A stretch of DNA of 35,546 nucleotides, taken from Bacteroidota bacterium. Its GTDB lineage: Bacteria; Bacteroidota; Ignavibacteria; UBA10030; UBA8401. A program made the position numbers and the translations under genes. Shown one piece after another: positions 4,571 through 22,429 of this stretch. The stretch's first letter is position 1. Each line of letters starts with the position of its first letter. The notes under the pieces were generated by a model. That model saw only the letters and a program-made list of their open reading frames with translations, did no database searches and was not told the DNA's origin. The stretch is taken from positions 1 through 35,546 of the forward strand of contig JAGVPT010000165.1 in NCBI GenBank assembly GCA_020052095.1. Direction: 5' to 3'.

Positions 4571-5911
4571 CAGTAGTGTCCGGTTAAGGACGAGTGATAT
4601 TCTTATAAGTTCTTTGAAATAAACAAGTTGGTGGATATTTTATTTTTTTCGATTTGAATTCCGCTGCGAAAAAAATGGAACTATATTTTTCAATTTCACC
4701 ATTTTTTAGGAGCAGTGGCATGAATATTGGCAGAACAATATTTTCTCAATTGACCGAGTACATTGATGAATATATTTTCAAAACAATAGTCGAAAAAAAT
4801 AAAGGGAATGAGCGCGTCCGTCACTTTACCTGTTGGGAACATTATCTCTGCATGCTGTTCGCCCAACTGACGAATAGAGAGAGTTTGCGAGATGTTGAAA
4901 CATGTCTGCGTGCAGCCGGAAAAAAACTGTATCACGCAGGTATCCGTTCACGCATCTCAGGTTCAACACTTGCCGACGCAAACGAACATCGTCCGTGGCA
5001 GATGTATCATGATTTTGCCCAGCATTTGATTCGAGAAGCACGGGTGCTGTACCGTAATGAAAAGATATTCTCAGACATAAGTACCGCAGTCTACGCATGT
5101 GATTCAACAACTATTGATCTGTGTTTGAGTCTTTTTCCATGGGCGCGCGCTACGGTCTACCAAAAAGCAAATGCCGCTATCAAGGTTCATACACAGTATG
5201 ATGTACAACAGAAAATACCCACTTAGATTAGGGTTTCTGCGGCAAATGTCCATGATGTCAACTTTATGGATGCGCTGGTATATGAACCAGGCGCGTTTTA
5301 CATCTTTGATCGAGGATATGTCGATTTCTCTCGTTTGCACCAGATCGAAAATGAAAAAGCATTTTTTGTTATTCGTGCAAAAAGATCGTTACGCTTTATC
5401 AGAGAAGCTTCATTATCCGTAGATAAGACAACCGGCGTAAGAGTTGATCAACGTATTAAGTTACAAGTGTTCTATTCTCTAAAAGAATATCCCGATCAAT
5501 TAAGAAGAATAAAATATTACGATGCTGTCCATAACCAAACGTATGTCTACCTGACGAATAATTTCCAACTCAACTCATTCACAATCGCCGAACTCTATCG
5601 CGCTCGTTGGGAAGTAGAAACTTTTTTCAAATGGATTAAGCAACATCTTCGCATGAAATCATTTTTTGGAACTAGTCCGAATGCTGTGAAAACTCAAGTA
5701 TGGATTGCAATCTCCGCTTACGTAATGATTGCAATTATTCGCAAACGACTGAACATCAACTTGTCGCTCTACACAATTCTCCAAATTTTAAGTGTTTCGC
5801 TTTTTGAGAAAGTCCATATTTATCAACTACTTACGGATAATCAAACGCAATATTTAATGCAACACTCTGATAACCTATTGAATTTATTTGACTTATAACC
5901 GGACACTACTG
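4571..5911 (+). mobile_element. IS4-family insertion sequence (DUF4372-type), 1341 bp
   Basis: The element is bounded by perfect 16-bp inverted ends (CAGTAGTGTCCGGTTA at 4571-4586 and its complement at 5896-5911) and by identical 9-bp direct repeats outside. It carries one transposase gene filling most of its length. The intact ends and exact duplication point to a fairly recent insertion. It lies between the sigma stop (5927) and the anti-sigma start (4520), in what would have been a gap of about 56 bp, and its gene reads against the host genes. No passenger gene is present. Confidence 0.93.
4720..5898 (+). pseudogene. IS4-family transposase interrupted by one in-frame stop
   Basis: The reading frame is continuous from the ATG at 4720 (AGGAG 7 bases upstream) to the TAA at 5896-5898, except for one TAG at 5224-5226. 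It would encode ~391 residues. The N-terminal part matches the DUF4372 region of IS4-type transposases. The DDE residues are visible: Asp in ACDSTTID, Asp in FDRGY and Glu in the IS4 signature Y-x2-R-x3-E-x6-K (YRARWEVETFFKWIK). The stop falls right after QQKIPT, where relatives have a hydrophobic residue, and the frame resumes with IRVSAANVHDVN. A single nonsense substitution (or sequencing error) is the simplest reading, because there is no frameshift. As written, the element could not make a full transposase unless the stop is read through. Confidence 0.9.
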
Positions 5912-5920
5912 ATGTACATA
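5912..5920. repeat. Right copy of the 9-bp target-site duplication
   Basis: Identical to 4562-4570 (ATGTACATA). It lies 6 bp before the sigma gene's stop codon complement, so the insertion left the sigma coding region intact. Confidence 0.9.
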
Positions 5921-5926
5921 TATATA

Positions 5927-6682
5927 TCATCTTTCGAGCAGAAATGGAGAGAAGAAATCATCAACCAGAATTTTTAATGTCTCAACACTGTGATTTGTCC
6001 TTTTTGGCCTTCCGTTGAGAAGGTCTATGATTTCGCGGATTTTCGAATCAGTCCATTTGCGCATTGCGTCCACCGAGTTCGATCTCTTCTCGTTCCTATT
6101 CATAATCGGAGTTACTATCTTGTAGATATCGATATCGCTCAGTTGATCATAGTTGAGCCCAAAATGTCTCGTCAGAGAGGCTTGATCTTCGCCGCTGCAC
6201 TCGGGGTACCAGAGACGAATATCTTCGGGAGTCATCGGAATTCTGAAATACAGTTTCAAACAAAGCAGAAGTTTGGGGCGTTGTGCGTCGTAGAGACTTA
6301 CAACTGTCCTAAATCTACGCACTTCATGATCAAGGACAGATCTTTTTTCATGACTGTTTTCAACGAAATAACCGCTGAGATCTTCTTGTAGAAAGTCAAT
6401 TTCTTTCTGGCCTTTGTGATGCTCCTTTAGGCAAATATTGCGCACGATGACTGAAAAATACGTTTTGAACAACGATTTTCCGTTATACTGTCTTTGCATC
6501 GCGGGTATCTTGGCCAAAAGCGACACATTGATTTCTTGGATGATATCGTCGAATTCAGGTGCCCTGAACATCCCCGCCTCGATATACTTTTTTACAATAA
6601 TTCTGACGGTCTCTTGATATTTCAAGAGAAGCGCATGAGGATCAGACCGAAGCAATTCGACATCTCTATCATTATCCGTCAT
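5927..6682 (-). CDS. Atypical sigma-70-family factor
   Basis: About 251 residues from the ATG at 6682, which has GGAG 6 bases upstream; in-frame ATGs at 6694 and 6709 are alternatives with weaker sites. Roughly residues 10-110 resemble sigma region 2: acidic DDIIQEI as in region 2.2, then an aromatic-rich segment (YFSVIVRNICLKEHH) like the -10 melting region. The rest is unusual: instead of the common ECF region 4 helix-turn-helix close behind region 2, there is a ~120-residue segment with an acidic stretch and a basic C-terminal part (RPKRTNHSVETLK). Promoter choice may therefore differ from standard ECF factors. It lies upstream of the anti-sigma-like gene on the same strand, separated now by an IS. 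Sigma assignment is likely; the subgroup is unknown to me. Confidence 0.72.
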   Translation of the reverse strand: MTDNDRDVELLRSDPHALLLKYQETVRIIVKKYIEAGMFRAPEFDDIIQEINVSLLAKIPAMQRQYNGKSLFKTYFSVIVRNICLKEHHKGQKEIDFLQEDLSGYFVENSHEKRSVLDHEVRRFRTVVSLYDAQRPKLLLCLKLYFRIPMTPEDIRLWYPECSGEDQASLTRHFGLNYDQLSDIDIYKIVTPIMNRNEKRSNSVDAMRKWTDSKIREIIDLLNGRPKRTNHSVETLKILVDDFFSPFLLER

Positions 6683-6913
6683 CCTTCTCTCCATTAAAAT
6701 CAAACCCATCCATGAAGGGACTCGAAATAGCTGTTTTCCAGTTCTACGCTTCCGGGTCGGCCCACCGTGACCATTTCAGTGGCTGGCTTTCTCGAGAATA
6801 TCTAGGTCCGAAAGACCTATTTCTCCATTTGCAAGTGTGCCGCAATTAATACGATCAGGCAAGGAAAATCAATTATGCCCCCCGGGGGGAGAGATATTAG
6901 TCGTATGCACTCG

Positions 6914-14883: not shown

Positions 14884-15324
14884 ATGGACATAGATGCAGC
14901 CAAGGACAATTTTACAAAATACCTTAAAGCTGGAAACTACAGAATCACGCCTGAGAGGTTTCAAGTGCTCGAATCGGTTCTGAAGAACGACGGGCATTTT
15001 GATGCCGACGGGCTCTTCCTTCAGTTGAAGTCGAGCGGCTCAAAGGTCTCCAGGGCTACGGTGTACAACACTCTTGAACTGCTCCAAGACTGCGGGTTGA
15101 TTTCAAAGTACCGCTTCGGAGAAAACCATTCCCGGTATGAGAAAGCATTCGGGCGGCCTCATCATGATCACCTTATCTGCCTGGAGTGCGGAGACATTAT
15201 CGAATTTGTCAGCGATAAACTTACGAAGATCCAAACAGATGTGTGCAAAGAAAATGAATTCAAATCTCAAAGCTCGACGCTTCAGATTTTCGGTAAGTGT
15301 AAAAAATGTCAAGAGAAAGAATAA
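14884..15324 (+). CDS. Fur-family metal-dependent repressor
   Basis: A 146-residue protein with an N-terminal winged helix (ITPERFQVLESVLKN and the recognition segment SRATVYNTLELL) and a C-terminal metal-binding dimer domain. His93-His94-Asp-His96 and the structural zinc pairs C99-x2-C102 and C139-x2-C142 are intact. Fur and PerR are hard to separate by sequence; being first in the feo operon and having a palindrome on its own promoter make an iron-responsive Fur most likely. AAGG lies ~5 bases before the ATG. Only 5 bp separate its stop from the first FeoA start. Confidence 0.92.
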   Translation: MDIDAAKDNFTKYLKAGNYRITPERFQVLESVLKNDGHFDADGLFLQLKSSGSKVSRATVYNTLELLQDCGLISKYRFGENHSRYEKAFGRPHHDHLICLECGDIIEFVSDKLTKIQTDVCKENEFKSQSSTLQIFGKCKKCQEKE

Positions 15325-15566: not shown

Positions 15567-15814
15567 TCTTGTCCAAAGTTACACTCAACACCCTTATTCC
15601 CGGAGAGCGTTGCGTGATTGAGCGAATTGAATCGGGGACGATATCTGTCCGGCAACGTCTGCTCGAGATGGGATTAACCAAAGGTACGAATGTTGAATTG
15701 ATTCGTTTCGCGCCGATGGGCGATCCCATAGAGATTTCAGTTCGCGGGTACCGCTTATCGCTCCGGCGCGTTGAGGCTGAGTCGGTCATCGTGTCGAAAA
15801 ACTCTCATCAATGA
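15563..15814 (+). CDS. feoA: FeoA-domain protein (second of two)
   Basis: An 83-residue, canonical FeoA: IPGERCVIERI, the RQRLLEMGLTKGT motif and the closing IEISVRGYRLSLRR strand pair. It is start-stop overlapped with both neighbours (ATGA at 15563 and 15811), so translation is coupled through feoA-feoA-feoB. FeoA is thought to bind the cytoplasmic G-domain region of FeoB and support ferrous iron import. Full length for the family. Confidence 0.95.
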   Translation: MILSKVTLNTLIPGERCVIERIESGTISVRQRLLEMGLTKGTNVELIRFAPMGDPIEISVRGYRLSLRRVEAESVIVSKNSHQ

Positions 15815-17925
15815 ATTCCTTAAAGACTGAAATACAGTTGCGGCATATCGCGATCATCGGCAACCCGAACGCCGGAAAGACCACCCTCTTCAACGCGCTT
15901 ACCGGAATGCGTCAGAAGGTCGGCAATTATCCAGGCGTCACTGTGGAGAAGAAGGAAGGAAGAATTATTTTTGAGGATGGGAGTGAAGCGGTTTTGCTTG
16001 ACCTGCCCGGAACGTACAGTCTCACGGCAAATTCTCCCGACGAAAAAATTGCTACAGACATCCTCCTCGGACGTGTGGACCACACTCCCCTTCCCGAACT
16101 TGTTGTCTGTGTGGTTGATGCCAGCAACCTCGAGCGAAATCTTTACCTGATCAGTCAAATAATTGATAACCGCCTCCCCGCCGTCGTTGCGTTAAACATG
16201 TTTGATGTTGCCGAGCGAGACGGATTGAAGATTGATATTCAAAAACTGTCGGCAGAATTGGGAGTTAAAGTCATCCCTACGGTCGGGAGCAAGTCACTGG
16301 GGATTGAAGAACTGAAAGCGGCGATCGCCGGACATGTTGAACCATCATCGCGATCGCGCCAGTGGATATTGCCGGCGCCGGTCCAGGAGGAATGCGACGA
16401 GCTGAAGGGCTTGCTTCAACAAATGCATCGTCTCTCCGAGCCAATCGCGTTTCACGAAGCGATCGTTCTCTTGACATCGCCAAGCGCGTTATCGGAACAT
16501 AATGACCGTTTCGCACCGGGCTTGATCGAACACGTAAAAAGGGATCATCAAAAACTAGACCTGCTGGGGATCGATCGGCATTCCGTTGTCGTCGAATCGC
16601 GGTACGAATGGATCAAGCGTGTCTGTTCTGCAGCTACTGTTTCGCACCGGCGCAGGGGAATGAGCGCAAGCGACAAAATCGACCAAATCCTCACTCACAG
16701 AGTGTGGGGCTTTGTGATCTTCATCGGCTTAATGACGATAATGTTTCAATCGATCTTCTCGTGGGCAAACGTCCCAATGGAATTGCTCGGCGATAGTTTC
16801 AACTGGGTCGGCGCGCAGGTATATGCGATGATGCCCGCAGGAGACCTCCGCGATCTTATCGTCAACGGAGCGATTGGAGGAGTTGGCGCGGTGGTGACCT
16901 TTCTTCCACAAATAATATTTTTGTTCCTCTTCATCGGATTCCTCGAAGACACCGGGTATATGGCACGCGCGGCTTTTATCATGGATAGAATGATGAGCAA
17001 GGTCGGCCTTCACGGAAAATCTTTTATCCCATTGCTCAGTTCATTTGCGTGTGCGATCCCCGGAATTATGGCCACTCGCACTATTGAAAGCCGCAAGGAC
17101 CGCCTTGTAACGATGCTTGTGGCTCCGCTGGTCAGTCGCAGCGCGCGGCTGCCGGTTTATGCCCTGATGATCGCTGCGTTCATTCCCAGAAAAACAGTGC
17201 TCGGGATTTTTTCATTACCGGGGCTTACTCTTGTTGCGATGTATCTCCTCGGACTAACGGCTGCCCTTTCAATGGCTTGGGTTTTTAAGAAAACGCTTCT
17301 AAAGAGCGAGGCGCCCGCTTTCATCATGGAGCTCCCGCCGTACAAGATGCCTTCCTTTAAATCCGTGCTGTTACATATGTGGGAACGCTCCATTCTTTTT
17401 TTGAAGCGCGCCGGAACCATCATCCTCGGAGTCTCAATTGTGTTGTGGTTCCTTGCTACATATCCAAAACTCGAACGCGCTTCCCCTTCGGAACAACTCA
17501 ACCAGAGCTTCGCCGGACGGGCTGGACATCTGATCGAACCCATCATTAAGCCGCTGGGGTTCGACTGGAAAATCGGTATAGGATTGATCGGGTCGATTCT
17601 GCAGCGAGAAGTCTTCGTTAGCACGATGGGAACGATCTATAACATAAAAGATGCAAAACATGAGAGGGGCAACGTTTCATTACGGGAACATCTCCAGCAG
17701 GACGTCGATCCGGTAAGCGGGGTCCCCACGTTCACGGCGTTGACCGCAATATGTTTAATGGTGTACTACGTTCTCGCGATGCAGTGTATGTCGACCGTTG
17801 CGGTTGTGCGGCGTGAAACAAATGGTTGGAAGTGGCCCCTCTTCCAAATCAGTTACATGACCGCGCTGGCGTATTCTGTAACATTTATCGTCTATCAAAT
17901 CGGACTTGTACTAGCGGAAGGATAA
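15811..17925 (+). CDS. feoB: Ferrous iron transporter FeoB
   Basis: A 704-residue protein. The N-terminal G domain has G1 GNPNAGKT (17-24), G3 DLPGTYS and G4 NMFD. A helical spacer follows, then a membrane part with about eight helices. Two Gate-type segments are visible (FLEDTGYMARAAF and the partner segment around LKRAGTIILGVSIVLWF). The conserved IPGIMATRT motif after a Cys-containing helix marks the family. FeoB imports Fe2+ across the inner membrane, driven or gated by GTP hydrolysis. It is last but one in the fur-feoA-feoA-feoB operon and presumably de-repressed when iron is low. Confidence 0.97.
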   Translation: MNSLKTEIQLRHIAIIGNPNAGKTTLFNALTGMRQKVGNYPGVTVEKKEGRIIFEDGSEAVLLDLPGTYSLTANSPDEKIATDILLGRVDHTPLPELVVCVVDASNLERNLYLISQIIDNRLPAVVALNMFDVAERDGLKIDIQKLSAELGVKVIPTVGSKSLGIEELKAAIAGHVEPSSRSRQWILPAPVQEECDELKGLLQQMHRLSEPIAFHEAIVLLTSPSALSEHNDRFAPGLIEHVKRDHQKLDLLGIDRHSVVVESRYEWIKRVCSAATVSHRRRGMSASDKIDQILTHRVWGFVIFIGLMTIMFQSIFSWANVPMELLGDSFNWVGAQVYAMMPAGDLRDLIVNGAIGGVGAVVTFLPQIIFLFLFIGFLEDTGYMARAAFIMDRMMSKVGLHGKSFIPLLSSFACAIPGIMATRTIESRKDRLVTMLVAPLVSRSARLPVYALMIAAFIPRKTVLGIFSLPGLTLVAMYLLGLTAALSMAWVFKKTLLKSEAPAFIMELPPYKMPSFKSVLLHMWERSILFLKRAGTIILGVSIVLWFLATYPKLERASPSEQLNQSFAGRAGHLIEPIIKPLGFDWKIGIGLIGSILQREVFVSTMGTIYNIKDAKHERGNVSLREHLQQDVDPVSGVPTFTALTAICLMVYYVLAMQCMSTVAVVRRETNGWKWPLFQISYMTALAYSVTFIVYQIGLVLAEG

Positions 17926-17929
17926 TACA

Positions 17930-18118
17930 ATGGATTGGCAGCAAACTATTTCATTGGTGATCGTGGCGTTGAGCGCGGTGCTTCTTGTGCGAGGCGAAAT
18001 CCAAAAAAGGAAGCGTGCCAAACTCACGGGATGCGGACACGACTGCGGATGCGGAGAGTCCGCCCCTGTCGACGAAGAAGTTTTCACCATTTCCACGAAG
18101 CAACGCTATCAACAATAA
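17930..18118 (+). CDS. FeoB-associated Cys-rich membrane peptide
   Basis: A 62-residue peptide with one N-terminal membrane helix (ISLVIVALSAVLLVRG), a basic stop-transfer segment (KRKRAK) and a cluster of cysteines, C35, C39 and C41 (GCGHDCGCG). This is the layout of the short Cys-rich proteins often encoded after feoB; they have been proposed to act in place of FeoC, possibly as an iron or redox sensor. It starts 4 bp after the feoB stop. Confidence 0.87.
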   Translation: MDWQQTISLVIVALSAVLLVRGEIQKRKRAKLTGCGHDCGCGESAPVDEEVFTISTKQRYQQ

Positions 18119-18320: not shown

Positions 18321-19127
18321 GTGCATTCTTCCAGAAAAGCTTTTTTTCTATTGTTCATGCTACTTGTTGGAATATCGCAGTCTTCGGCAAATGAGAGGCG
18401 CTTTGTTTACACATATGAAACTTCAGTCTTGCCTCCCGGTAGCCGAGAGATTGAAACCTGGAATACATACCGCTCCGGCAAGAACTTTTTTTCCCGACGA
18501 CTTGATCAACGCATCGAGTACGAGTTTGGCGTGAGCAGAGATCTTATGTCATCGATTTACCTCAATTACGGCATGAAGACCGAAGATTCTAACGGCGACG
18601 AACCCGGGGGGAACTCGACGTCATCGTACGAACTCGGCTTTTCAAATGAATGGAAATACAAAATCTCCGATCGTGTCGCCGACCCAATTGGCATCGGCTT
18701 GTACGGAGAGTTTACACTTGTCCCCGGAGAGGTTGAGATTGAGGGTAAGCTCCTCTTCGACAAAGAGTTCAAGGATTTACTTTTTGCATTCAACGGTGTG
18801 GTGGAACAAGAATGGGAATCTGAAGTGGATAACGGAGAGACCAAGACTGCGAGGGAATTGAAGGTAGAATTTGACCTCGGCACGTCATACCTACTTACCA
18901 GCAGGTTGTCGGCCGGAGTCGAGATCCGTCAACACAACGTGATCGTGGATGGAGAAGTTGAGCATTCCACACTCTTCGCTGGGCCGGTCATTTCCTACGC
19001 GGCCGAAGGCTGGTGGGCAACAATCGCCGTCCAACCTCAGATAAAGAGTTTTAAAGGGTCGACGACATTAGACCTTGCGGAGTACGAAAAATTTCAGGCC
19101 CGGTTATTATTCTCATTTCACATTTAG
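18321..19127 (+). CDS. Predicted outer-membrane beta-barrel protein (GTG start)
   Basis: A 268-residue protein. AAAGGAG sits ~7 bases before a GTG start. A signal peptide is clear (AFFLLFMLLVGISQSSA, cut near SANE). The mature part has alternating aromatic/hydrophobic and polar residues expected for barrel strands (for example RIEYEFGVSRDLMSSIYLNY) and ends in phenylalanine-containing LLFSFHI, a typical barrel C-terminal strand. No named family is recognised. It lies 202 bp after the feo operon and 3 bp before the cytochrome lipoprotein gene, so these two form an operon. Its cargo, if any, is unknown. Confidence 0.75.
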   Translation: MHSSRKAFFLLFMLLVGISQSSANERRFVYTYETSVLPPGSREIETWNTYRSGKNFFSRRLDQRIEYEFGVSRDLMSSIYLNYGMKTEDSNGDEPGGNSTSSYELGFSNEWKYKISDRVADPIGIGLYGEFTLVPGEVEIEGKLLFDKEFKDLLFAFNGVVEQEWESEVDNGETKTARELKVEFDLGTSYLLTSRLSAGVEIRQHNVIVDGEVEHSTLFAGPVISYAAEGWWATIAVQPQIKSFKGSTTLDLAEYEKFQARLLFSFHI

Positions 19128-19130
19128 GCT

Positions 19131-19481
19131 ATGAAAAGCATTGTGGCGGTGGGTTTTATCCTCTCACTCTCAATCCTTGCAGCATGCGCAGGCTCTATCC
19201 CGGTGCCCGCAGAGCATCACGACCGTTGGGCAGCGCTTGCGTGGCCGGGCACGACCCATGCCGATTTAATAGAGGGACGGAGATTGTATATCGAAAACTG
19301 TTCTGGCTGCCATGGACTCAAATCTCCAATGGACTATACGGAAAATCAATGGAAGGAAAATGTCTCGGAGATGAGACAAAGAGCTAAGATCAAAGAAGCC
19401 GATAGTCAGTTGATTTTAAAGTATTTGATCACTGCGGCCCAGAAGTCAGACCGACTCGACACCGCCGCAATGACAAACTAA
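19131..19481 (+). CDS. Lipoprotein with a single heme c site
   Basis: A 116-residue protein. The signal peptide ends in a lipobox LAAC with Cys19 as lipid attachment residue. One heme-attachment motif is present, CSGCH (57-61), in a short class-I-like cytochrome domain, and a downstream Met in SEMRQR could be the axial ligand. It would act as a lipid-anchored periplasmic electron carrier or as a small diheme-type fragment. Tight coupling (3 bp) with the barrel gene suggests joint function, for example outer-membrane-associated electron transfer, but this is inference. Heme attachment requires cytochrome c maturation, and a CcdA gene lies further along. Confidence 0.85.
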   Translation: MKSIVAVGFILSLSILAACAGSIPVPAEHHDRWAALAWPGTTHADLIEGRRLYIENCSGCHGLKSPMDYTENQWKENVSEMRQRAKIKEADSQLILKYLITAAQKSDRLDTAAMTN

Positions 19482-19606
19482 GAACGGATTTTTCCCGGTT
19501 TGCCGATGGGATTCCGTGTAGTTCGAGAACGAATGATCAACACGAACCGAAGTCCCGCCGTTTTCTCTTGGAAAGAAGAAGCAGACCCGACAGGAGGAGG
19601 CATCTC

Positions 19607-19651
19607 ATGCTTAAGTTTGGGGGGAAGATTTCACAGGCAGCGGAACGATGA
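19607..19651 (+). CDS. 14-codon upstream ORF translationally coupled to the NarL-type gene
   Basis: ATG at 19607 is preceded by an excellent ribosome site (GGAGGAGG, 19593-19600, 6 bases away) and encodes MLKFGGKISQAAER. Its TGA (19649-19651) overlaps the regulator's ATG (19648) as ATGA. The regulator itself has no obvious ribosome site, so initiation there may depend on translation of this small frame. The peptide has no recognised family. Whether it is a functional product or just a coupling device cannot be told from the sequence. Confidence 0.5.
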   Translation: MLKFGGKISQAAER

Positions 19652-20298
19652 AAAAAATAACGATCCTGATAGCAAATAAGTACTTCTTGGTGAACTACGC
19701 CATTAAGTGCATACTAAGCAGGATCAAAGGATTCGAAGTCTGTGGCGTCCCTGAGGAGGAAGTCATTACCAAGATAGCCATTCTCAAACCGGATATCTTC
19801 ATTATTGAAGTTGATACCCAAAGAATCAACGGACTCCTCCTCTTAACGCAAGTCAAGGAAAAATATCCAAGATTGAAAAGCATTGTTCTTTTGGATGTCA
19901 TCAACAAAGAAACCCTCGCCGACTTGCTTCGCATGAACCTCGACGGTTACATCCTGAAAAATGTCAGCCGAGAAGAGCTAATCAGTGCGGCGACGAGCGT
20001 TTACAAAGGCGAGAAGTACTACAGCAAGGAAATTCAGCAGCTAATGCACGAGAGCGTAGTGGAAGGGAGAGGCAACGGTTCGTCGGACGAGATTGACCAA
20101 TTGAGCAAACGGGAACATGAGATATTTGAAATGATCATCGGGGGGATGACAAGCAGGCAAATCGCCGGCAATCTCTTTCTGAGTAAGCATACAGTGATTA
20201 CGCATCGAAGAAACATAATGAAGAAGTTGAATGTCAACAGCACTTCTCAGCTAATTCTCACCGCTGTGAAACGCAGCGCCATCCCCCAACGTGATTAG
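19648..20298 (+). CDS. NarL/LuxR-type regulator with a degenerate receiver
   Basis: A 216-residue protein with the two-domain layout of NarL-type response regulators. The C-terminal LuxR-type helix-turn-helix is standard (LSKREHEIFEMIIGG, then SKHTVITHRRNIMKKL). The receiver is atypical: where the acidic pair DD normally sits near residue 9 it reads AN, and the phospho-acceptor Asp position is Glu54 (PDIFIIEVD). The signature Lys (Lys104 in YILKN) is kept. The expected phosphate chemistry is therefore probably lost, and the protein may act constitutively or respond to another signal. No histidine kinase is encoded nearby. It is likely co-translated with the 14-codon ORF before it. Confidence 0.88.
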   Translation: MKKITILIANKYFLVNYAIKCILSRIKGFEVCGVPEEEVITKIAILKPDIFIIEVDTQRINGLLLLTQVKEKYPRLKSIVLLDVINKETLADLLRMNLDGYILKNVSREELISAATSVYKGEKYYSKEIQQLMHESVVEGRGNGSSDEIDQLSKREHEIFEMIIGGMTSRQIAGNLFLSKHTVITHRRNIMKKLNVNSTSQLILTAVKRSAIPQRD

Positions 20299-20607
20299 CC
20301 CCGCATCGCCTGTCGTAGGTAGAAAAAATTACCTCCCTTAGCGTATTGAGTCAGCAGCAGTAATGAAGCTATCTTTGTCATAGAAATTATGACACAGTAT
20401 ATGCCTCACGAAATTTTACCGCTGTTCGGTTTTACCAGTACGTCCGCATATCAAATCCACTCCGCCTCGCGAACCCGTGAGCACATTTCAACTTTTAGGT
20501 ACTCTACAAACAGCACCGGCGACTTTCCTCATGGTGCGGAGGACATACTCTTCCGTCGGGGTTCCTCAAATCAAATTAACCGCTCATATCACTTCGGGAG
20601 TATTGCG

Positions 20608-21555
20608 ATGAACCAACATTCATTCACCCTCAAGAATCTCAGATTGATGATCGCTTTCGTCATGATTCTTTGTTCGGTCTTCGTGGAGGTCTCTTTCGGA
20701 GGCCACGGCAACTCCAATAATCTTAAGAAGAAAATTGGAGTCTTGCTCGTGAACCACGGATCGCGTTCCGAAACGTGGCGAAAATCTTTATTCAATCTTG
20801 AAGACAGCGTTCGCAATCCAATCGCGAGGAACTCGAATATTCACGGGATAAAGACAGCGTTCATGGAGTACACTGAACCTTCAATCGCAACACGGTTAAG
20901 AGAATTTGATGCGGACGGATTCACGGATGTAATCATTGTCCCCGTATTCCTTACTATCAGCCCGCATTCCTTCGACGATATCCCCACCATCATCGGACAG
21001 AAGGAAGATCCACAATCCGTCGAAACGCTAAAAATGGAAAAGATACAACGTTACACGCCAAATGCGAAAACTCACCTGACTCCCCTGCTGGATTTCACCG
21101 ACATGCTGAAAAAAAATGTCTTACGGCGGGTACGGTCCCTTTCGAAAGTTCCCAGCGAGGAAGGATTGGTGATGATCGCATACGGGGACGAGACCTATAA
21201 GAATGAATGGATTCGATTATTGCGTTCGGTCGGACAATTTACAAAACGTCATACCGGAATTTCGGAATATGCCTATGGATGGTGCGGCCATCTTGTTCAC
21301 TACAACCCCGATTCCACGACAGCCGCCGTCAGGACAGTCTTAGAGAAGAAAAAGAAGGCGATCGTTATCCCGCTGTTGGTAGCTCATGACGAAATGTTTC
21401 AGGTGAAGATCATCGGCGACGGCATTGCCAATGTTCCGGACAATAAGAGCAGAGTGAAATACAAGCCCGATTCGATTTTACCGGATAAGAATATCGAAAA
21501 CTGGGTAGTGCAAATCACGAACGAGTTTACTCGTCACATTCTAACAACACAGTGA
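20608..21555 (+). CDS. Exported CbiX-like (sirohydrochlorin chelatase family) protein
   Basis: About 315 residues from the ATG at 20608 (GGGAG ~8 bases upstream); an in-frame upstream start would place an unlikely extension before the signal sequence. The N-terminus is a signal peptide or anchor ([20 protein letters not shown]). Two CbiX-type halves follow. The first has NHGSR (His50) and [13 protein letters not shown], with the second metal-site His. The second half keeps the fold (LVMIAYGDE, then [11 protein letters not shown]) but not the HG motif. CbiX enzymes insert Co2+ or Fe2+ into sirohydrochlorin in the cytoplasm; an exported form suggests tetrapyrrole or metal handling in the periplasm (inference). 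The PepSY-type gene follows 14 bp later. Confidence 0.82.
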
Positions 21556-21569
21556 GCCATTGATTCGGC

Positions 21570-22148
21570 GTGAAAACACTGTCTTCAAAAAAACCGAAGC
21601 GTTTGGTCAAAGTTCTTCACCGCGATTTCGGATTTTTCTTTTCCGGCTTGATAATTATCTACTGTATCTCCGGTTTGGCGTTGAATCATATTGACGATTG
21701 GAACCCGGATTTCGTCATCGAGAAAAAGAGAGTCGAAATTCCACAAATCATTATGAACAAGAAAATATCCAGAGATCAGGTAATTGAATTCGGTAAGAAA
21801 GTGGGAGAGGTTAATTACAAGCTTTATGATTTTCCGACTCCCGCACAAGTGAAGATCTATTACGATAATGCTTCACTGCTCATAGATTTGACGAGCGGTT
21901 CCGGCATCTATGAAAGAGTACTGCGGCGCCCCATCTTTTACCAATCCAATATCCTGCACAGGAATAGTCTTAAGGGATGGAAATGGGCCGCTGATGTCTT
22001 TGCCGTCATGCTCATTGCCATCAGCGTCACTGGCCTCCTTATCTTCAGGGGGAAAAATGGCATCTCAGGAAGGGGCAAGTGGTTAATCATCGCCGGAATG
22101 CTGCCACCGGTCATGGCATGGACAATTTACGAATTGGTACAAAAGTAA
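21570..22148 (+). CDS. PepSY-associated membrane protein (GTG start)
   Basis: A 192-residue protein. A basic N-terminus (KKPKRLVKVLHRDFG) leads into a helix (FFFSGLIIIYCISGLALNH), then a ~100-residue periplasmic part, a helix pair (DVFAVMLIAISVTGLLIF and WLIIAGMLPPVMAWTIYEL) near the end. This matches the short PepSY-TM type, with conserved His in HRDFG, LNH and HRNS, which may bind heme. Such proteins often accompany siderophore or heme receptors as probable inner-membrane reductases. The GTG start is 14 bp after the CbiX-like stop and shows no strong ribosome site. The gene is probably coupled to the CbiX-like gene. Confidence 0.8.
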   Translation: MKTLSSKKPKRLVKVLHRDFGFFFSGLIIIYCISGLALNHIDDWNPDFVIEKKRVEIPQIIMNKKISRDQVIEFGKKVGEVNYKLYDFPTPAQVKIYYDNASLLIDLTSGSGIYERVLRRPIFYQSNILHRNSLKGWKWAADVFAVMLIAISVTGLLIFRGKNGISGRGKWLIIAGMLPPVMAWTIYELVQK

Positions 22149-22177
22149 ACACGACGTCCGCCCGGAATAATGCATAA

Positions 22178-22429
22178 AGGCCGTTCCTGCTTGACGAAAC
22201 CGTGGTAACAGGGACCAGAACCGCAAAGCAACTTTCGAATGTTCCGATACCAACGTGGATCATTTCGCAGAAGGAAATTGATGGGCGACATCCCGTCCGT
22301 TTGGATGATATTCTCTCCGAACAGACAGGACTTTCAACAAAGATGCGCCGGCATCACCGGACGCAAGCTCGACAAACCGTAATTACAAATTCAGATATGT
22401 TTATCGCAAGGATGCGTCAGCGAAGTTGA
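22178..22429 (+). pseudogene. Remnant of a TonB-dependent receptor (plug-domain fragment)
   Basis: The frame after the stop at 22175-22177 encodes LDETVVTGTRTAKQLSNVPI and continues to DDILSEQTGLS, which is the unmistakable beginning of a TonB-receptor plug domain. It should be followed by hundreds of barrel residues, but it ends at 22429 after an unrelated tail. In another frame at about 22335-22431, the stretch NYKFRYVYRKD resembles barrel strands, so a large internal deletion plus frameshift may have joined the two ends. No signal peptide or start is left. The intact gene probably worked with the PepSY and CbiX-like proteins just upstream. Confidence 0.7.

Follow-up and report, generated by a model that had tools for sequence, protein, structure and literature searches.

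The genes of the locus

The window analyzed in this work is the whole stretch of 35,546 nucleotides from a Bacteroidota genome (class Ignavibacteria), and its end coincides with the end of the contig. It harbors, in a row, a gene coding for an exported chelatase-like protein of the CbiX/SirB type, a gene coding for a small PepSY-like membrane protein and what is left of a TonB-dependent receptor gene (Table 1). These are the three elements that the first-pass annotation had proposed, and all of them were identified. They share one strand with the upstream genes for Fur, FeoB and the FeoB-associated protein. The chelatase and PepSY reading frames are both intact and are separated by 14 bases. 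The region between the FeoB and chelatase genes (18321-20298) encodes a DUF6662-like protein, a cytochrome c-like protein and a LuxR-type response regulator.

Table 1. Coordinates of the features discussed in the text, in the window and (last row) in two related loci.
Feature	Position	Strand	Evidence or remark
Fur-family regulator	14884..15324	+	Upstream of the chelatase-PepSY pair, same direction; PF01475, E 2.1e-32
FeoB ferrous iron transporter	15811..17925	+	TIGR00437, 537.6 bits (cut-off 315.65); PF02421
FeoB-associated small Cys-rich protein	17930..18118	+	PF12669, E 2.7e-5, slightly below cut-off
Exported two-lobed class II chelatase-like protein (CbiX/SirB type)	20608..21555	+	PF01903
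Three-helix PepSY_TM-like inner-membrane protein, probable electron conduit	21570..22148	+	PF16357
TonB-dependent receptor plug remnant, about 50 codons	about 22181..22333	+	Open frame 22202-22429
SufT-like protein, next gene 3' of the remnant	ORF from 22446		
FMN_bind/Fer4_5 membrane proteins beside the chelatase	L059:9904-11307; L060:7648-8715		

The exported chelatase-like protein

The chelatase ORF begins with an ATG that has the motif GGGAG seven bases upstream, and it codes for a product of 315 amino acids. A longer in-frame ORF opens at 20389; the start at 20608 was preferred because both homology and the hydrophobic segment agree with it. The protein scores 49.9 bits against the Pfam CbiX model PF01903, above the curated cut-off of 22, and 61.2 bits against the model of the CfbA sirohydrochlorin nickelochelatase (NF033198), well below the equivalog cut-off of 120; the latter model was matched at E 0.001 or better by all 58 chelatase members. 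The Pfam and NCBIfam scans returned neither a CobN-type class I match (PF02514) nor a CbiK family for the window protein.

The idea that this CbiX-like protein is exported, instead of having a cytoplasmic N-terminus, was supported. Home-made rules recognized an exported-type N-terminus in 59 of 64 chelatase-like proteins, the window one included (7 of the 71 rows were skipped in this survey and in the tree), and a loose lipobox pattern in 41 of these 59. The window protein itself reaches a best N-terminal 12-residue hydropathy of 3.03 and lacks a lipobox pattern, according to the same kind of home-made rule and not to SignalP.

Two histidines, H50 and H120 (window numbering), are invariant in all 62 rows of the chelatase alignment (A1, from which 9 of the 71 rows, mostly fragments, were omitted), and so is E87. 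Aligned with the solved CfbA, H50 and H120 fall on its positions 9 and 75, the metal-site histidine pair (His9 and His75). In a tighter set of 58 rows (A2, which additionally omits L007-L010), the second-lobe residues W225, G227 and H228 are also invariant, and they might perhaps form a second ligand site.

An AlphaFold2 model built from the 58 aligned sequences (pLDDT 90.2) was superposed on known structures with VIA-align. The sirohydrochlorin chelatases SirB, CfbA and CbiX, which share the histidine pair with the window protein, are the nearest ones by sequence and fold (Z 19.1, rmsd 3.5 and 242 aligned residues for SirB), and coproporphyrin ferrochelatase gave Z 16.6. Two exported proteins having the class II chelatase fold, as the window protein does, were also matched, i.e., the periplasmic cobaltochelatase CbiK of Desulfovibrio vulgaris (2xvz, 2xvx; Z 15.9, 14% identity) and FetB/IhtB of Porphyromonas gingivalis (PDB 9b86; Z 15.6, rmsd 3.6, 228 aligned, 11% identity in the structural alignment). 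SirB, CfbA and CbiX are cytoplasmic biosynthetic enzymes, whereas the window protein is of the exported type and falls far below the NCBIfam equivalog cut-offs.

The PepSY-like partner

The ORF following the chelatase gene scores 51.0 bits against PF16357 (PepSY_TM-like, cut-off 27) and 21.9 bits against PF03929, under the cut-off of 28.8. Three histidines, H17, H40 and H130, are invariant in 40 of the 40 proteins aligned (A3, from which 14 of 54 proteins were omitted for ragged starts or by choice). In the predicted structure (pLDDT 79.2, pTM 0.54) one helix is followed by a small alpha/beta domain and two further helices (7-39, 135-158 and 165-191), with H17 lying inside the first helix, H40 just past it and H130 ahead of the second one.

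Histidines of this kind hold the hemes of known PepSY_TM proteins, which reduce ferrisiderophores in the periplasm, according to the available passages of PMC13038864 (this and the other papers indicated by PMC numbers are cited from passages). By analogy, we infer that the short protein of the window type may also carry heme and act as a reductase in the periplasm. Since neither the sequence profile (0 solved relatives) nor Foldseek at E 0.001 found a solved relative of the model, heme binding by H17, H40 and H130 is proposed by analogy. The window protein appears to be PepSY_TM-related, as the FoxB-type reductases are, and its invariant histidines are predicted to flank the membrane; the absence of FoxB from the match lists, obtained with a model of pTM only 0.54, is no evidence against kinship.

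Conservation of the pair in related loci

A chelatase protein scan of 84,980 species genomes yielded 60 loci, 58 after dropping two duplicate contigs (L042 and L066, the same contigs as L008 and L007); L054, whose contig stops at the gene end, was dropped as well. A PepSY gene lies directly 3' of the chelatase gene in 52 of the 57 loci with room downstream, mostly at a distance of -3 to +17 bases. In 24 of the 42 full-flank loci a TonB-dependent receptor gene lies no more than about 4 kb away, in 15 there is a gene for an HmuY-type hemophore (PF14064 matches), and 18 have neither of them nearby. A distance control on these 42 loci gave 25 receptors within 4.5 kb (376 kb of DNA covered) vs 4 at 4.5-9 kb (343 kb), and 23 vs 0 HmuY genes. 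The conservation and linkage of the chelatase-PepSY pair is far beyond chance, and this pair is the constant core of the related loci. The linkage of genes that the first-pass annotation had presumed does exist in relatives; the link to the receptor is frequent and yet not universal, and the receptor gene of the window is broken.

The order most commonly found in Bacteroidota is an HmuY-like gene with a T9SS tail, chelatase, PepSY, in some cases DUF6686, receptor and a further HmuY-like gene. Proteins of the ABM family adjoin the pair in L007, L019 and L026; the one in L026 has its best matches with HmuQ and IsdG-type heme-degrading models, below their cut-offs. FeoB is encoded upstream in the window and in L007 and nearby in L010, and Fur is present in the window, L007, L041 and L044. 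The clustering of neighbors recognized no heme permease as a constant partner.

Some peculiarities of gene organization can be mentioned here. The DUF6686 protein, of about 110 amino acids, occurs in ten loci (e.g., L061:10479-10805), mostly between PepSY and receptor. In four Chlorobiota loci (L048, L049, L052 and L053) a divergent second chelatase gene lies 3' of PepSY, which is in this way enclosed between two chelatases. In L013, a 582-amino-acid exported protein with chelatase-like repeats (5063-6811) is followed by a receptor and then by the chelatase-PepSY pair.

Loci without PepSY

In L059 and L060 PepSY is absent, and its position is occupied by a membrane FMN_bind/Fer4_5 protein (Table 1) that has NosR, NapH and RnfG as weak kin. 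The latter are proteins of periplasm-facing electron transfer. In four other loci (L008, L043, L047 and L067) PepSY is missing as well and the chelatase has no signal peptide; these chelatases form one group (SH-aLRT 99) nested among exported forms in a quick tree with no bootstrap, and three of the four are Chloroflexota records. In L047 the chelatase gene is followed by one for a Pyr_redox_2 protein, and L008, L043 and L067 have no evident redox neighbor. Since the PepSY-less forms either have the FMN_bind/Fer4_5 protein or lack the signal peptide, export of the chelatase and presence of a redox partner in the membrane tend to coincide. Contrary to this pattern, L009 and L010 harbor very divergent exported chelatases (28-29% identity) without PepSY. 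The property that is kept seems to be the redox function of the partner rather than membership of the PepSY family.

This arrangement bears on the possibility that the chelatase inserts a metal in the periplasm, loading an imported porphyrin or one of the cell's own with another metal, in the manner of FetB. Fold and export are as in FetB and in the periplasmic CbiK, and manganese insertion, giving Mn-protoporphyrin, is reported for FetB in the passages of PMC13402209. However, metal insertion should have no need of an electron donor, yet the membrane redox-type partner is near-obligate and replaceable by one of another kind, and the links with Fur and FeoB indicate iron. We regard insertion as very improbable.

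It must also be noted that the window chelatase is the sole CbiX match of its genome, which might suggest a role in siroheme or B12 biosynthesis. As a main role, this was rejected because of the export of the chelatase, its PepSY partner and its neighbors.

The receptor remnant and the ligand

The remnant matches general models weakly (Plug, E 0.08; TIGR01785, E 2e-4), and it matches a model built from the receptors of related loci at E 3e-8. With tblastn, the best hit has E 1.9e-5 and 40% identity, and all matches below E 0.01 fall inside the stretch given in Table 1. On the basis of the tblastn result and the match to the related-receptor model, a chance origin was rejected. Neither the N-terminal export part nor the barrel is present.

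As for the receptors of the related loci, 23 of 40 ORFs were used in the alignment (A4). Heme and hemoglobin receptor models were matched by 23 of the 23 receptors scanned, with the best E-values among the models tabulated, and they match models of B12 and siderophore receptors as well. None of the models listed for the first receptor member reaches its cut-off.

Because of HmuY, the matches with heme-type receptor models and the HmuQ-like neighbors, heme is most likely the ligand class of the receptor-chelatase-PepSY loci, as far as can be judged from sequence. The earlier proposal of a tetrapyrrole or metal uptake unit, which is largely supported, is in this way narrowed to heme. Cobalamin uptake was discarded: B12 models do match the receptors, but the HmuY and HmuQ-like neighbors indicate heme.

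A different view is that the unit serves a siderophore, copper or cobalamin complex, with PepSY as the real worker and the chelatase domain binding something else. Known PepSY_TM proteins located beside receptors act as ferrisiderophore reductases or have been proposed to handle copper (passages of PMC13038864), and the receptors match siderophore and B12 models too. We consider this view quite improbable, in that within the loci HmuY occurs only near the pair, an HmuQ-like protein adjoins it, and the partner of PepSY belongs to a family of tetrapyrrole-handling enzymes.

Two TonB-dependent receptors with heme-model matches are encoded elsewhere in the window genome, on contig C183 (L082; 4699-6903 and 11459-13881), the second of which appears split across two frames. 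One receptor of this contig scores best with the heme models; a 734-amino-acid receptor on the same contig resembles the operon receptors and has 24% identity to that of L007.

A possible route to iron from heme

The pair adjoins heme-uptake genes in relatives and, therefore, it probably represents an undescribed route to iron from heme. On balance, we lean towards the idea that it works as the periplasmic section of a module for acquiring iron from heme, in which the exported chelatase removes Fe(II) with electrons supplied by PepSY. According to this model, a TonB-dependent receptor would let heme in, in Bacteroidota often with the aid of HmuY hemophores, and the exported chelatase would bind it. 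The PepSY protein would pass electrons across the inner membrane, either reducing the heme iron or keeping the freed iron ferrous; the class II chelatase would strip Fe(II) from the porphyrin, i.e., the reverse of what its biosynthetic cousins do, and Fe(II) would then be imported by FeoB. Heme as the substrate, the flow of electrons and the direction of the reaction are what we infer. Several observations count against the model: the 18 of 42 loci with neither receptor nor HmuY, the additional B12 and siderophore matches of the receptors, the genome's own ferrochelatase and its lack of HmuY, and the exported but PepSY-less forms of L009 and L010.

Alternatively, the exported protein might be a periplasmic carrier of heme or porphyrin, its chelatase fold having been co-opted for binding, that passes intact heme to the inner membrane, PepSY being its docking or uptake partner. 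In Foldseek searches the chelatase model also resembles periplasmic binding proteins, among the weaker rows, and its matches include a FetB entry whose title reads 'without heme group'; moreover, judging by the HmuQ-like/ABM proteins of L007, L019 and L026, heme may arrive intact in the cytosol of these organisms. A carrier is nonetheless unlikely in our opinion: both chelatase histidines are invariant, the clustering of neighbors recognized no constant heme permease, and the partner is of redox type wherever it can be named.

Distribution and the window genome

The chelatase gene is sporadic: it occurs in 5 of the 391 class genomes and, at E 1e-20, in 10 of the 395 phylum genomes. Within the family of the window organism it occurs in 2 of 22 genomes, the window one counted, and the chelatase of the other holder groups with Acidobacteriota and Verrucomicrobiota forms, apart from that of the window, with modest support. 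This placement outside the group of the window protein suggests a horizontal spread of the gene. Among cultured bacteria, Runella has the pair (L041 is from Runella defluvii); the uncultured holders are numerous and include Bacteroidota, Chlorobiota, Acidobacteriota and Verrucomicrobiota, among others.

Within the window genome we found one ferrochelatase, and no HmuY, CobN-type chelatase (PF02514) or second CbiX match. PF02514, the HmuS-type family, is also absent from 34 of the 36 operon genomes scanned. The same protein family occurs in 103 of the 395 genomes of the phylum sample, but this sample consists mainly of one family of organisms with mostly two copies each; these are presumably green sulfur bacteria with their chlorophyll chelatases. 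No claim that the pair replaces HmuS is made, because a phylum baseline dominated by one family is unsuitable for using HmuS absence as evidence of replacement.

Since the receptor gene beside it is lost, the pair of the window would either have to rely on a receptor gene located elsewhere or is itself disappearing. The options are use of a different receptor, a role in the turnover of internal heme, and decay.

Comparison with known systems

Participation of an exported class II chelatase in heme uptake is not a new idea, as FetB/IhtB has been proposed to take iron from heme (PMC6460266, PMC13227078 and PMC13402209, as far as their available passages go) and is CbiK-like (PMC6460266), whereas the window protein is CbiX/SirB-like. 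The hmuYRSTUV operon likewise combines HmuY and a receptor with a heme de-chelatase, the NADH-dependent HmuS, and FeoB then takes up the Fe(II) (passages of PMC12583661). A precedent for the route is also found in the passages of PMC6460266, which describe B. fragilis as freeing heme iron in the periplasm and requiring FeoAB. HmuS is a large class I CobN-like protein, unlike the class II chelatase of the window. HmuY and the heme receptor of the hmu operon are found in part of the related loci, the window having the receptor remnant only. For FetB/IhtB, we know of no PepSY partner.

The legend of a figure in PMC12106395 indicates that pepSY and T9SS genes are drawn in the hmu loci of some Bacteroidota; part of this neighborhood has therefore already been seen before. 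No description of the chelatase-PepSY pair was found in the open-licence literature. As far as our searches reach, it has not been described there that such a chelatase is almost always paired with a membrane redox partner, and that this partner seems to be exchangeable. The partner is PepSY_TM-like in most loci and of the FMN_bind/4Fe-4S type in some. A bolder reading, which we put forward only tentatively, is that such loci represent a second class of heme de-chelatases that evolved independently, namely an exported class II chelatase with an obligatory but exchangeable membrane electron donor, carried by a cassette that hops between phyla.

The extraction of iron from heme without heme oxygenase is poorly known outside the HmuS-bearing gut Bacteroidota, and a compact two-gene unit of small proteins makes this question directly testable. 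If the proposed route is true, the ferrochelatase fold would be run in reverse with the help of a redox partner.
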